A stretch of DNA of 64,000 nucleotides from Methylovirgula ligni (GTDB lineage: Bacteria > Pseudomonadota > Alphaproteobacteria > Rhizobiales > Beijerinckiaceae): positions 2,666,001 through 2,730,000 of the forward strand of contig NZ_CP025086.1 in NCBI RefSeq assembly GCF_004135935.1, in the 5' to 3' direction. This document shows, piece after piece, positions 44,983 through 48,853 of the stretch (position 1 is the first letter of the stretch; every line of letters begins with the position of its first letter). The notes beneath the pieces were generated by a model. That model worked only from the letters and a program-made list of their open reading frames with translations, searched no databases and had not been told where the DNA came from. The translations under genes and the position numbers were made by a program.

Positions 44983-45993
44983 TCAGAATGGCTTGCCGCA
45001 GGCCGTTTGCGGCAAGGACAAGGAGGGATTCGTGACGAATGTCCGATCGGTTATCGTTTCGAGGAAGGCAATTAGCTCGGCAACATCGCCACGTGGTATG
45101 ATCTGCGCCATGTTCGAGTCGCCGCCAACATGCGCGCGGATCGCCGCTTCCAGAGTCTTGGCCGAACCATTGTGCAGATAGGGTGCGGTGATCGCTACGT
45201 TGCGCAGGCTCGGCGTGCGGAAGCGATTCTTATCCATAGTGCGGCCTGTTACGGTCTCTAGACCTTCGTCGTGGGGATTGCCTGTCCCGATGTTGTGATA
45301 ATCGAGGTCGGTGAAATTGACACCGGAGTGACAGGCTGCGCAACCGGCCTTGCCGAAGAAGCTAACCATGCCGGCTTTTGCGAAGGGTGTAATCGCGTTG
45401 GCATCGCCGCGCTGGTAACGGTCAAAGGGCGAATCGAAGGAAAGCATTGTGCGTTCGAAGCTGGCGATGGCCTTGACCGTGTTCGCTACCGTGATCGCGT
45501 CTTTCGGAAAGGCCGCGGCGAACATTTGCCGGTAGCAGGTGTCGGATTGCAGTCGCCCGACCAGCACCGTCATTTTGCCATGCATACCCATCTCCACCGG
45601 ATGGGTGTTGGTCAAAGGCATGACGGCTTGTTGCTCCAAGCGGTGGCGGGTGGAATCGGCCCATGTCAGCGGATCGAAATAAGCGACATTGGCGAGACCC
45701 ATCACATTGCGCAGTCCCTGTACGTCGCCGATGCCGGGGTGGGTGGCATTGCCATCCGTGAAACCCCGACCTTGCTCATGGCAAGTGGCGCAGGCTGTTG
45801 TTCCATCGAGCGACAAATCGGCATCGTAGAATAGCCTTCGGCCGAGCGCGACCTTGGCAGCCGACATAGGATTGTCCGCCGGCACCTTCGGCGGCGTTAC
45901 GCCGGCCGGCAAATGCCAGTCGTAAGCCGCTGCAGGCACGCCACGCCAGGCCACCCAGACAAAGGCGATTATCAAAGTCAGCCGCGCGATCAC
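44983..45993 (-). CDS. Di-haem cytochrome c peroxidase/MauG-like protein
   Basis: The 336-residue periplasmic protein has a signal peptide (cleaved near VPAAA-YDW) and two CXXCH haem sites, C68-H72 (CATCHEQ) and C218-H222 (CAACHSG). The family C-terminal motif TPSLRNVAITAPYLHNG is present. These features place it among bacterial di-haem peroxidases and their MauG/MbnH relatives. The GTG at 45993 overlaps the stop of the upstream gene as GTGA, so the two products are coupled and are likely partners. Some MauG relatives oxidise a residue on a partner protein instead of reducing peroxide, which is the reason to look closely here. Both genes are divergent from a TonB receptor. Confidence 0.88.
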   Translation of the reverse strand: MIARLTLIIAFVWVAWRGVPAAAYDWHLPAGVTPPKVPADNPMSAAKVALGRRLFYDADLSLDGTTACATCHEQGRGFTDGNATHPGIGDVQGLRNVMGLANVAYFDPLTWADSTRHRLEQQAVMPLTNTHPVEMGMHGKMTVLVGRLQSDTCYRQMFAAAFPKDAITVANTVKAIASFERTMLSFDSPFDRYQRGDANAITPFAKAGMVSFFGKAGCAACHSGVNFTDLDYHNIGTGNPHDEGLETVTGRTMDKNRFRTPSLRNVAITAPYLHNGSAKTLEAAIRAHVGGDSNMAQIIPRGDVAELIAFLETITDRTFVTNPSLSLPQTACGKPF

Positions 45994-46535
45994 AGTTTGG
46001 GCGAGATCATGATATCGAGCGTCGGCGCCGCATTGGCCGAGATCTGTACGATGTAGTGGCCCGGCTTGAGCGGAAAGGCGACGGCCTTGCGGATGCTGGA
46101 ACACTCTGGCCCGTGGCCGTGAGCTGTCGAAGCGATCTTGCTTGCCCCCGAGACGACATCAATCCAGGCGCCGGAGCCGAGACTGAATTGATACGTGCCA
46201 GCTTTGCTGATCTGCACCGCCAGAATTCCGCCATAAGCCACTGAGCCTCCCGGCTTGTCAGGCTCGACGACGTAAGCGACCTCACGCGTGTGATGCAGCG
46301 TTGCCTGGACTGCCTGACCGGATTTGAGCGTAGCTGCTGCCGAATCTGCCTCCTTGGTCGCGCTTTGCAGCGGCGTCTTCGACGTCCAACCGCTTAAGGC
46401 TTGCGGCAAAGACGTATCCAGGGCGGCGCATGGTTTCTGGGAGCCGGGCATCTCCTGCGCCAACGCGGCAGGACACGGCAGCGCGAGCACAAACGAAAGC
46501 ACAGCGCATCTTGCAAGCATTTCCCGTTGCTTCAT
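45990..46535 (-). CDS. Small secreted protein coupled to a di-haem peroxidase
   Basis: The 181-residue protein has a signal peptide cleaved near PAALAQ-EMP. The mature domain, about 155 residues, is beta-rich (QATLHHTREVAYVVEPDKPGGSVAYGGILAVQISKAGTYQFSLGSGAWIDVV). It has two cysteines, C36 and C145, several histidines (H81, H82, H139, H141) in HH and HGHGPEC contexts, and tryptophans W50 and W124. I do not recognise the family. The tight coupling to the di-haem enzyme and the divergent TonB receptor suggests a periplasmic metal-binding or modified partner, as MbnP is for MbnH. No MbnP sequence match was seen by eye. Confidence 0.7.
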   Translation of the reverse strand: MKQREMLARCAVLSFVLALPCPAALAQEMPGSQKPCAALDTSLPQALSGWTSKTPLQSATKEADSAAATLKSGQAVQATLHHTREVAYVVEPDKPGGSVAYGGILAVQISKAGTYQFSLGSGAWIDVVSGASKIASTAHGHGPECSSIRKAVAFPLKPGHYIVQISANAAPTLDIMISPKL

Positions 46536-46762
46536 TCAACTTTCCTCAAAGCGCGCTCACGGTCCTAAAGCAACCCCGGCATTGCCGGGGATTGAAGGGC
46601 CAAGCTGTATTGACAGAGTTATAGCTTAACATTAATGGATTTCTTCGTGCAATATACAAAAATATATAGCTTTGGGTGATGAACGGCGCGTTGATCGGGC
46701 TCTCCACGCCGCCAACGAGTTCACTCCGGCAAACGACTGAATGGGTACGGGGGTACTAAATC
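46536..46762. promoter_or_regulatory. AT-rich divergent control region of the peroxidase/TonB module
   Basis: The 227-base spacer holds a 7-bp GC hairpin, CCCCGGC-att-GCCGGGG at 46574-46590, then a strongly AT-rich stretch at 46610-46680. TTGACA at 46610-46615 is a good -35 for rightward transcription, with ATTAAT at 46631-46636 (15-base spacing) as a possible -10. I see no canonical Fur or Irr palindrome. Confidence 0.45.
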
Positions 46763-48853
46763 ATGAGCAATATAAATACGCGTATTTTGCGCTTCGGCCG
46801 CAACGGCATCGGTGCCGGCATTGCCCTGGCGCTGGCAACGACGGTGGCACGGGCCCAGGATCCGGCGGTTTTCAATCTCGGCGAGATCGACGTCACGGCG
46901 CCGAACGATTCCCAAAATCAGACCACCGACAATGGAGCCGCCCTCGGCGCCACGACGATCACCAATCAGCAGATGTACGAATTCGATCTTAATACGCTCG
47001 ATCAAGCGGCAACGCTCGCCCCGAGCGTTGTCCAATCGAGCTCGGGAAATGCGCGTAACGAGTCGGTGCTGTTTGTCCGCGGTTTCAACCGTTATCAGGT
47101 GCCGCTTTCAATCGATGGCGTGCGCATCTATCTGCCCTATGATGATAATCTCGATTTCGCACAATTTCTTACCGCTGATATTTCCGAGGTTCAGATCGCC
47201 AAGGGCTACGTCTCGGTCCTCGACGGCCCGGGTGCCATTGGTGGTGCGATCAATCTCGTCAGCCGCAAACCGCAAAAGGCGATCGAGGGCGAAATACGAG
47301 AGGGGACGGAATTCGGCGACGGCCAGTTTCTCGGTGCTTCTACGAATCTATATCTCGGGACCCGACAACCGAATTGGTATCTGTCGGGAAGCGCCAATTT
47401 GGTTCAGCTCAATGGTTTCCCGCTGTCCGAGTCCTTCACGCCGACAGATTCCCAAGGTCCGGGCCTTCGCGACCATTCTGAAACGCTCAACGCCAGCGGG
47501 AGCGCCCATTTCGGATTCACGCCGAATGCGACAGATGAGTATTCAATCAACTTCGTCAAACAAGTCGGCCAAAAAGACGCGCCGTTCCAGACCGATCTCC
47601 CGGTGACTTCTCAGAAAAACTGGACTTGGCCTTATTGGAACGTTCAAAATATCTATTTTCTGTCCAATACCGCGATCGGTGATTCTTCTTATGTGAAGAC
47701 ACGCCTTTATTACAGCCGGTTCGACAATGCGCTGTATGCTTACAATCCTGACGGTCTGTTTGACCTGCAAACGTTCAAAGGAGCTTTCCAAAGCTTTTAC
47801 CACGATTACGGCATCGGCGGCAGTGTCGAAGCCGGCACCAATTTCGGTAAGTTCGACACGCTCAAGGGAACGCTTCAGTATCGCCGCGATGATCATCAAG
47901 CGTATGAATGGGCACCCACTACCGGAGTCCAACCGCAGACCGTTGACCTTACGGACACTTATACGGTTGCGCTCGAAAATACGGTGCACATAAACAGGCA
48001 GTTGGATTTCGTTCTGGGGACGGCCTACAACTGGCGAGACACGCCCGAGGCGCAATATTACAGCTCTACGGCTCCCGGCAATATCGCCTATTATGCGACG
48101 AACAAGCTTGGTGCACCGGACGGCCAGGGGGCTTTGATCTGGCGCTACTCGGATAGTGACACATTGTCCGCAAATATCTCGTCACGAGAGAGATTTCCGA
48201 CGATGTGGGAACTCTATAGCGCAGAATTCGGCAATGCGCTTCCAAATCCCACTCTTCAGCCTGAGCGCGCAACCAATTATCAGATTACCTGGAGCAGGAA
48301 GTTCGGCAGCACAGGTGATGTCAGCGCCGCTGTTTTCTACAGCGACGTCCAAAATCTTATCGAAGGGGTCGAGCTCAGCCCCAGTTTAGTTCAGAATCAG
48401 AATGTCGGGACCGGTTATTTTGTTGGTGCCGAAGCCTCGGGCTCCTATCAACTGCGTGACGATCTTTCTATCGGCGGGAATGTATCCTTCATCCGCCGCC
48501 ATGTCGACGATCCGCAGGGAACTGGCGCGACGCTCCCGACCTACGAGCCTACGGGCGTCCCTTTCGCTGAGGGATTCCTGTATGTGACCTGGTCGCCATT
48601 GCACAATCTCAATTTGACTCCCAGTGTCCAAATCGCCGATAGCCGCTGGACGGAAAACGAAACTGGTCCAACCTATTATTATTATCAGACCGGCGCCTAT
48701 CATCTCGTAAACTTCATAGGCAGCTATCAGTTCGATAATCATTTCACCTTGCAAGCCGGCGTCAAGAACCTGCTCGATCAGAACTACGCTCTCTCCGATG
48801 GCTATCCCGAGGCGGGACGGACATTCTTCCTCAAGGGCCGGCTGGTCTTCTGA
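46763..48853 (+). CDS. TonB-dependent outer-membrane receptor
   Basis: The 696-residue protein has a signal peptide (cleaved near VARAQ-DPA), a plug domain of about residues 35-165 (ATLAPSVVQSSSGNARNESVLFVRGFNRYQVPLSIDGVRIYLPYD, VQIAKGYVSVLDGPGAIGGAINLVSRKP) and a 22-strand barrel, ending in the typical aromatic F696 (FFLKGRLVF). It imports some ligand, likely a metal chelate, with energy from TonB. The ligand cannot be read. The gene has many codons with A or T at the third position, unlike neighbouring genes, suggesting later acquisition. It is divergent from the secreted protein and di-haem peroxidase genes. Confidence 0.92.
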   Translation: MSNINTRILRFGRNGIGAGIALALATTVARAQDPAVFNLGEIDVTAPNDSQNQTTDNGAALGATTITNQQMYEFDLNTLDQAATLAPSVVQSSSGNARNESVLFVRGFNRYQVPLSIDGVRIYLPYDDNLDFAQFLTADISEVQIAKGYVSVLDGPGAIGGAINLVSRKPQKAIEGEIREGTEFGDGQFLGASTNLYLGTRQPNWYLSGSANLVQLNGFPLSESFTPTDSQGPGLRDHSETLNASGSAHFGFTPNATDEYSINFVKQVGQKDAPFQTDLPVTSQKNWTWPYWNVQNIYFLSNTAIGDSSYVKTRLYYSRFDNALYAYNPDGLFDLQTFKGAFQSFYHDYGIGGSVEAGTNFGKFDTLKGTLQYRRDDHQAYEWAPTTGVQPQTVDLTDTYTVALENTVHINRQLDFVLGTAYNWRDTPEAQYYSSTAPGNIAYYATNKLGAPDGQGALIWRYSDSDTLSANISSRERFPTMWELYSAEFGNALPNPTLQPERATNYQITWSRKFGSTGDVSAAVFYSDVQNLIEGVELSPSLVQNQNVGTGYFVGAEASGSYQLRDDLSIGGNVSFIRRHVDDPQGTGATLPTYEPTGVPFAEGFLYVTWSPLHNLNLTPSVQIADSRWTENETGPTYYYYQTGAYHLVNFIGSYQFDNHFTLQAGVKNLLDQNYALSDGYPEAGRTFFLKGRLVF

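Follow-up and report, generated by a model that had tools for sequence, protein, structure and literature searches.

We analysed a window of 64,000 nucleotides from the alphaproteobacterium Methylovirgula ligni (contig NZ_CP025086.1, positions 2,666,001 to 2,730,000) and conclude that three adjacent genes within it, encoding a TonB-dependent receptor, a small secreted protein and a di-haem peroxidase-like protein, probably make up a molybdenum-repressed, TonB-energised outer-membrane uptake module. The original prediction had proposed that these genes form a possible metal-uptake or protein-modifying system, and had drawn its analogies from MauG and the copper-associated pair MbnH-MbnP. Recurrence of the trio in relatives supports the view that the genes belong together, and a metal-uptake module is likely; the control sites and gene neighbours point away from copper, with molybdenum appearing the most likely metal.

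The receptor gene (696 aa; 46763..48853, + strand) is divergent from an operon on the - strand in which the gene for the small protein (181 aa; 45990..46535) is followed by that for the di-haem protein (336 aa; 44983..45993), and a gap of 227 bp separates the two transcription units. The GTG start of the di-haem gene (45993) overlaps the TGA stop of the small gene within the tetranucleotide GTGA (45993-45990). The receptor exceeds the cut-offs of both PF07715 and PF00593 (Plug 59.4 bits, barrel 107 bits), as expected of a TonB-dependent receptor. Its GC content is 54.0%, and its GC at third codon positions (GC3) is 62% versus 80-84% in five neighbouring genes. The predicted overlap, the two haem sites of the peroxidase and the A/T-richer codons of a divergent receptor were thus all confirmed.

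The case for molybdenum begins in the 227-bp gap, which holds two Mo-box-like palindromes (46603..46626 and 46648..46671), each matching 14 of the 16 positions of AGCTATAT-N8-ATATAGCT. The shared promoter region therefore carries sites of the kind expected in a ModE regulon; when the gap was shuffled, none of 2000 shuffles reached 14/16 even once. The second palindrome also matches 14 of the 20 positions of the Escherichia coli ModE consensus (shuffle P 0.007), published as ATCGNTATATA-N6-TATATANCGAT (PMC545781). Across the genome, a single contig of 3.3 Mb, the 16-position pattern occurs at eight sites with at most two mismatches and at two in a reversed control; with three mismatches the figures are 10 and 6. 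Six of the eight sites fall at telling places. Besides the two in the gap, one lies directly before modB-modC (both over NCBIfam cut-offs; C1:2212406), one about 0.4 kb ahead of moaA (over cut-off), and one at the start of an MHYT-LytTR gene that leads on to genes resembling coxM and coxL, for which the best models are of CO/glyceraldehyde dehydrogenase (the examined stretch ends within the coxL frame). The sixth, a perfect 16/16 palindrome (L175:5836, C1:1827835), is ahead of a second TonB receptor (L175:5955-8237) beside tonB-exbB-exbD-like genes. Another perfect palindrome precedes an uncharacterised ABC operon (L174:4753-8526, C1:481752 onward) that encodes a Met-rich 399-aa protein without a Pfam match and an NMT1-like ABC transporter, and is possibly another molybdenum-regulated uptake route; the eighth site has no clear gene. 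The pattern was derived from two sites of an earlier one at a time when the window site was already known, so its choice was not made blind to the window sites, and its finding of modBC, moaA and the cox-like operon is the strongest independent point. The modA gene of this genome (L157:5935-6759, C1:2298934) is located apart from modB-modC and is closely followed by genes resembling those for D-Ala ligase, ftsA and ftsZ.

Similar boxes accompany the receptor in other bacteria. Related loci totalling 1.09 Mb contain 27 sites that match at least 14 of the 20 ModE-consensus positions. Of these, 13 fall within the 16 kb, or 1.5% of the sequence, that surround the 5' ends of 29 receptor frames; five lie in the 65 kb surrounding frames of the small, modA or modE genes, and nine elsewhere. 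With the window's own promoter excluded, 17 of 28 receptor promoters contain a significant box (shuffle p <= 0.05; combined p 4.5e-16). On plasmids, a 17/20 box precedes the receptor of Methylorubrum extorquens CM4 and a 15/20 box the lone small gene of Methylovirgula sp. HY1, and the small gene of Sphingomonas sp. NY01 has a 14/20 box ahead of it (P 0.002). Moreover, ModE-like genes were found beside the receptor or the small gene in 12 examined places (L053, L062-L066, L072, L073, L077, L005, L010 and L016). They are also near the module on plasmid pCMU01 of M. extorquens CM4, together with a moeA-type gene annotated Glp, on p1 of Sphingomonas sp. NY01, together with a Mop/TOBE protein (76.1 versus 55 bits), and on a plasmid of Novosphingobium sp. 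RL4. Against TIGR00637, eight ModE-like proteins scored 62.7-95.8 bits, so that none attained the cut-off of 98.5, and in the cases examined those near the module are without the molybdate-binding half, except at L053. A Pseudomonas aeruginosa plasmid record (L188:4820-7384) holds a distant, 31%-identical homologue of the receptor, with a 17/20 box ending 13 bp ahead of it; this receptor adjoins a gene for a 182-aa molybdopterin-domain protein, moaA and nar genes.

To place the trio among relatives, receptor homologues were sought at E <= 1e-60 in 396 other genomes of the order and detected in 22; homologues occur across several orders of Alphaproteobacteria. Loci from 20 of the 22 genomes were taken for context analysis. 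The small gene adjoins the receptor in 14 of these 20, and six of the 14 also have the di-haem gene. The divergent layout of the window is repeated in Sphingomonas naasensis, Novosphingobium sp. JCM 18896 and Acetobacter indonesiensis, and on a plasmid of Sphingomonas paeninsulae, where the genes are annotated as TonB-dependent receptor, homogentisate 1,2-dioxygenase and cytochrome-c peroxidase. Since the same arrangement recurs in other genera, the layout is more than chance. On pCMU01, receptor, IS5, small gene and peroxidase follow one another in a row (L182:6141-8304). In this survey, which covered loci selected for either the small gene or the receptor, the di-haem gene was found only where both are present (14 loci); it was found in none of 21 loci with small gene and modA, and in none of six loci with the receptor only.

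Several variants of the arrangement were seen. In S. naasensis the di-haem gene is broken into two overlapping frames (L073:6326-7467), and in Sphingomonas sp. NY01 the small gene adjoins only a 170-codon piece of a receptor of this family, which is itself next to another TonB receptor (L184:4383-4892). Two Azospirillum plasmids have four genes in a row (L183:2144-7923, L190:2137-7905), for a solute-binding protein, a di-haem oxidoreductase of the DHOR type, a TonB-receptor homologue and a TonB protein, with a weak box ahead (13/20, P 0.02-0.04) and no small gene found at these loci; they may represent a third kind of di-haem partner.

The small protein provides a second line of evidence. We examined 118 unique family members within a radius of 2.5 kb, many of the loci being short or cut by contig ends. 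The di-haem gene is a neighbour in 14, the receptor without the di-haem gene in 13, modA in 21 and a ModE-like gene only in one; 69 have none of these. Relatives in the named collection were gathered with one peptide pattern, and among the best 80 of 95, modA, modB and modC all lie within 4 kb of the small gene in 11. In one locus (L010:568-1875) a ModA over cut-off and the small domain share an uninterrupted frame of 436 codons, a natural fusion if the assembly is right. The family thus points to molybdenum, because its relatives adjoin modA and are once fused to it in frame. A paralogue in this genome (L002:1369-1866, C1:528970), 31% identical, lies near an aquaporin-family gene and has no di-haem gene nearby. 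Many Mesorhizobium copies (L088-L143) are found away from molybdenum genes and receptors.

The features originally read from the small protein (181 residues, W50, W124 and an HGHGPEC cluster) are all present, and its N-terminus looks signal-like by eye. It matched no Pfam family over cut-off (the best, FYTT, at E 0.26, is far below cut-off); NCBIfam yielded no model at E <= 1, and the PDB, searched by sequence, no relative better than E 0.52. MbnP or another named family was therefore ruled out as far as these searches tell, in agreement with the earlier remark that the protein does not resemble MbnP. Structure prediction gave, with good confidence (mean pLDDT 87.7), a beta-sandwich preceded by a disordered N-terminus. 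Fold matches were weak, to PPC-like and carbohydrate-binding (CBM) domains, and the sole PDB match with E below 0.001 is a collagenase collagen-binding (PPC-like) domain (E 4.5e-4, query TM 0.42); we take this no further than a PPC/CBM-like beta-sandwich. Relatives are annotated homogentisate 1,2-dioxygenase, a name that we take as a misannotation, judging from size and export. In alignments C36, C145, W124 and K150 are family-wide, and the pair R149-K150 could suit an oxyanion.

No consensus promoter was found in the 227-bp gap. The leader of the small gene contains a G-C hairpin of seven pairs followed by a T-rich stretch (46574..46590, - strand; one found versus a shuffle mean of 0.3), which is a possible attenuator or terminator.

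The di-haem protein belongs to the di-haem cytochrome c peroxidase (CCP_MauG) superfamily, with two CXXCH haem motifs (CATCH and CAACH) and 172.1 bits against PF03150 (cut-off 25.6; scored on a longer, 373-aa frame). Its nearest curated family is MbnH (TIGR04039), at 295.4 bits below the cut-off of 362.85; against MauG (TIGR03791) it scored 187.9 bits, below the cut-off of 443.85. The nearest solved structure is the di-heme enzyme 6e1c, and the MauG structure 3l4m matches in sequence over about 245 residues. Where 6e1c has a Tyr, which we take to be the distal haem ligand, the window enzyme has His. This ligand is Tyr294 in MauG and Met in classical peroxidases. His occupies the position in 13 of the 14 linked enzymes and Tyr in one (L069); Tyr is also found in an unlinked paralogue of this genome (L028), with no small gene or receptor in 3.9 kb. 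His/His ligation of the haem would speak against a mechanism taken over unchanged from MauG.

The linked enzymes fall into two groups. Those of the window type (the window, L074 and L078) are 44-52% identical to one another and six of a Hyphomicrobium type 48-78%, and between the groups identity is 28-33%. Against TIGR04039, six other window-type enzymes scored 244.9-297.8 bits and the six Hyphomicrobium-type enzymes 147.2-163.1. Because identity between the groups about equals identity to the unlinked L028 (27-34%), the simplest reading is that two di-haem clades were recruited separately.

The original prediction held that the small protein is a substrate or metal-binding partner of the peroxidase, and its residues support this in part. 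We scored as a W50-equivalent any Trp 10-16 residues past the first conserved Cys, counting by distance since in one of the groups hmmalign misplaces W50 by a single column. Such a Trp is present in 14/14 small proteins with a di-haem neighbour, in 10/13 at receptor loci without the enzyme, in 6/22 at modA or modE loci and in 13/69 others. It is also present in all 12 window-type members of alignment A3, with or without the enzyme, so that the pattern could be explained by descent. W124 occurs in 114 of 118 family members (one Arg, three gaps); because it is kept with or without the di-haem gene it is probably structural, and as a specific target of the enzyme it was rejected. HGHGPEC fared no better as a site tied to the enzyme: the motif H-x-x-G-P-x-C marks one subfamily (12/12 in A3), members without a di-haem gene included. 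Moreover, 104 of the 118 small proteins have no di-haem neighbour, within the limits of the short and cut loci, so the family is widespread apart from the enzyme, an outcome that had been set down in advance as counting against the pairing. That the enzyme modifies the small protein, with W50 as the best candidate, is accordingly put forward only tentatively.

Several observations weigh against a molybdenum module, and we gather them here. The earlier box pattern, CGNTATAT-N8-ATATANCG with 2 mismatches, gave 6 sites versus 5 in the control, showing no excess, and missed the window altogether; it was discarded. No site of the final form lies at the genome's modA or at the small paralogue L002. 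There is no ModE gene beside the trio, and the best ModE-like protein of the genome (C1:269629) scored 63.4 bits versus the TIGR00637 cut-off of 98.5. Among relatives, 11 of 28 receptor promoters have no significant box, including those of the full-trio loci L056, L073 and L078, and the gap of S. paeninsulae reaches 13/20 (P 0.126, not significant). The 69 small proteins with neither molybdenum gene nor receptor within 2.5 kb, many of them from Mesorhizobium, also count on this side; many of these loci are on short stretches, and 36 of the 69 proteins have Leu in place of Y115. The di-haem gene, for its part, is missing from 13 of 27 loci that join receptor and small gene. Lastly, homologous receptors in Paracoccus and Bartonella adjoin FecCD-type ABC transporters usually called iron transporters.

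This last observation would suit a receptor that imports an iron siderophore or haem, placed under molybdenum control since molybdenum and iron chelates compete or since molybdenum enzymes need iron. Among curated models, the receptor scores best against those of hemin and siderophore receptors, though it reaches none of their cut-offs. However, FecCD-type transporters can also carry molybdate, as MolBC of Haemophilus does, and with Mo-boxes in many receptor promoters and modA or ModE neighbours of the small protein we consider an iron cargo improbable. Still less probable is a protein-modifying pair of the MbnH/MbnP-like copper, or MauG-like, kind working with a TonB receptor. The overlapping genes, the kinship of the enzyme to MbnH and 6e1c and the W50-equivalent in every di-haem-linked small protein all speak for it, but the enzyme is below the cut-offs of both families, His replaces Tyr in 13 of 14, the small protein matches no NCBIfam model, most of its relatives have no such enzyme nearby, and regulation and neighbours are of the molybdenum type. 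A copper/MbnP identity for the module is thus not likely.

A molybdenum uptake module, which we prefer, might work as follows. When molybdate is ample, a ModE-type repressor would shut both transcripts; when it is scarce, repression would be lifted and the receptor would import molybdate or, more likely, a molybdenum-chelate complex. These steps are suggested by the boxes and neighbours. The periplasmic beta-sandwich protein would then bind the cargo and hand molybdate towards ModA/ModBC, as the linkage of its gene to modA suggests. For the di-haem enzyme we propose an accessory redox role: it would act either on the small protein, with W50 as the best candidate, or on the organic ligand that enters with the metal, and molybdate would thereby be held or released. 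This step, proposed from co-occurrence only, is the least certain. Action on the organic ligand is possible, if rather doubtful, and other redox roles take up what remains beside these two. A rival reading, which we consider unlikely, makes the enzyme one of the usual H2O2 peroxidases of the periplasm, produced upon failure of molybdoenzymes and placed in the operon for regulatory convenience. Membership of PF03150 and the absence of the enzyme from nearly half of the receptor-small loci are compatible with it, but the tight 4-bp overlap with the small gene, the absence of the enzyme from the 21 small-modA loci and the presence of two divergent clades in the same gene neighbourhood are not readily accommodated. 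In the fullest version of the molybdenum scheme, an enzyme of the MauG/MbnH type with a His ligand, acquired on at least two separate occasions, would oxidise its beta-sandwich partner, most probably at W50, and so make or unload a molybdenum site on a dedicated TonB-dependent route. This would be a di-haem protein-modifying system for an oxyanion metal; the version is speculative, and we doubt it more than we favour it.

If the proposed module is real, it would provide a function for a secreted family annotated homogentisate 1,2-dioxygenase and a setting for di-haem enzymes in which His replaces the Tyr of MbnH. ModABC explains the inner-membrane step of molybdate uptake; in the parts of the literature that were available, the outer-membrane step is little treated, and it becomes directly testable with a TonB receptor that is under Mo-box control and has a defined partner in the periplasm. 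Within that partial coverage, no report joined TonB receptors, Mo-boxes and di-haem enzymes. One review (PMC4965479) lists TonB receptors for complexes of iron, zinc, cobalt and nickel. Metal-repressed uptake through TonB receptors is itself a known kind of system; what would be new is the metal, together with the unusual redox partner.

Among known systems, MbnH-MbnP (TIGR04039; 6e1c) is similar in coupling an enzyme of the MauG superfamily to a small secreted partner, and TonB receptors can be found near such pairs. The window system differs in an enzyme below the family cut-off with His for the Tyr of 6e1c, in a partner that matches no MbnP model and in boxes of the molybdenum type. MauG with methylamine dehydrogenase (TIGR03791; 3l4m) shares the di-haem superfamily and the match noted above, but the score is far below cut-off and family searches give the small partner no relationship to methylamine dehydrogenase. 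The nearest outer-membrane route for molybdate in the literature consulted is that of Pseudomonas aeruginosa, which combines the type VI secretion system (T6SS) with secreted ModA and IcmP, described as a metalloproteinase of the outer membrane (PMC8602904); the window instead has a TonB receptor and a PPC-like protein. Closest in regulation is the ModE regulon with ModABC: the box is of the kind given in PMC545781, the same palindrome stands ahead of this genome's modBC and moaA, and relatives of the small gene lie beside modABC. The window would extend that regulon by a TonB receptor in the outer membrane, by a new protein in the periplasm and by the di-haem enzyme.

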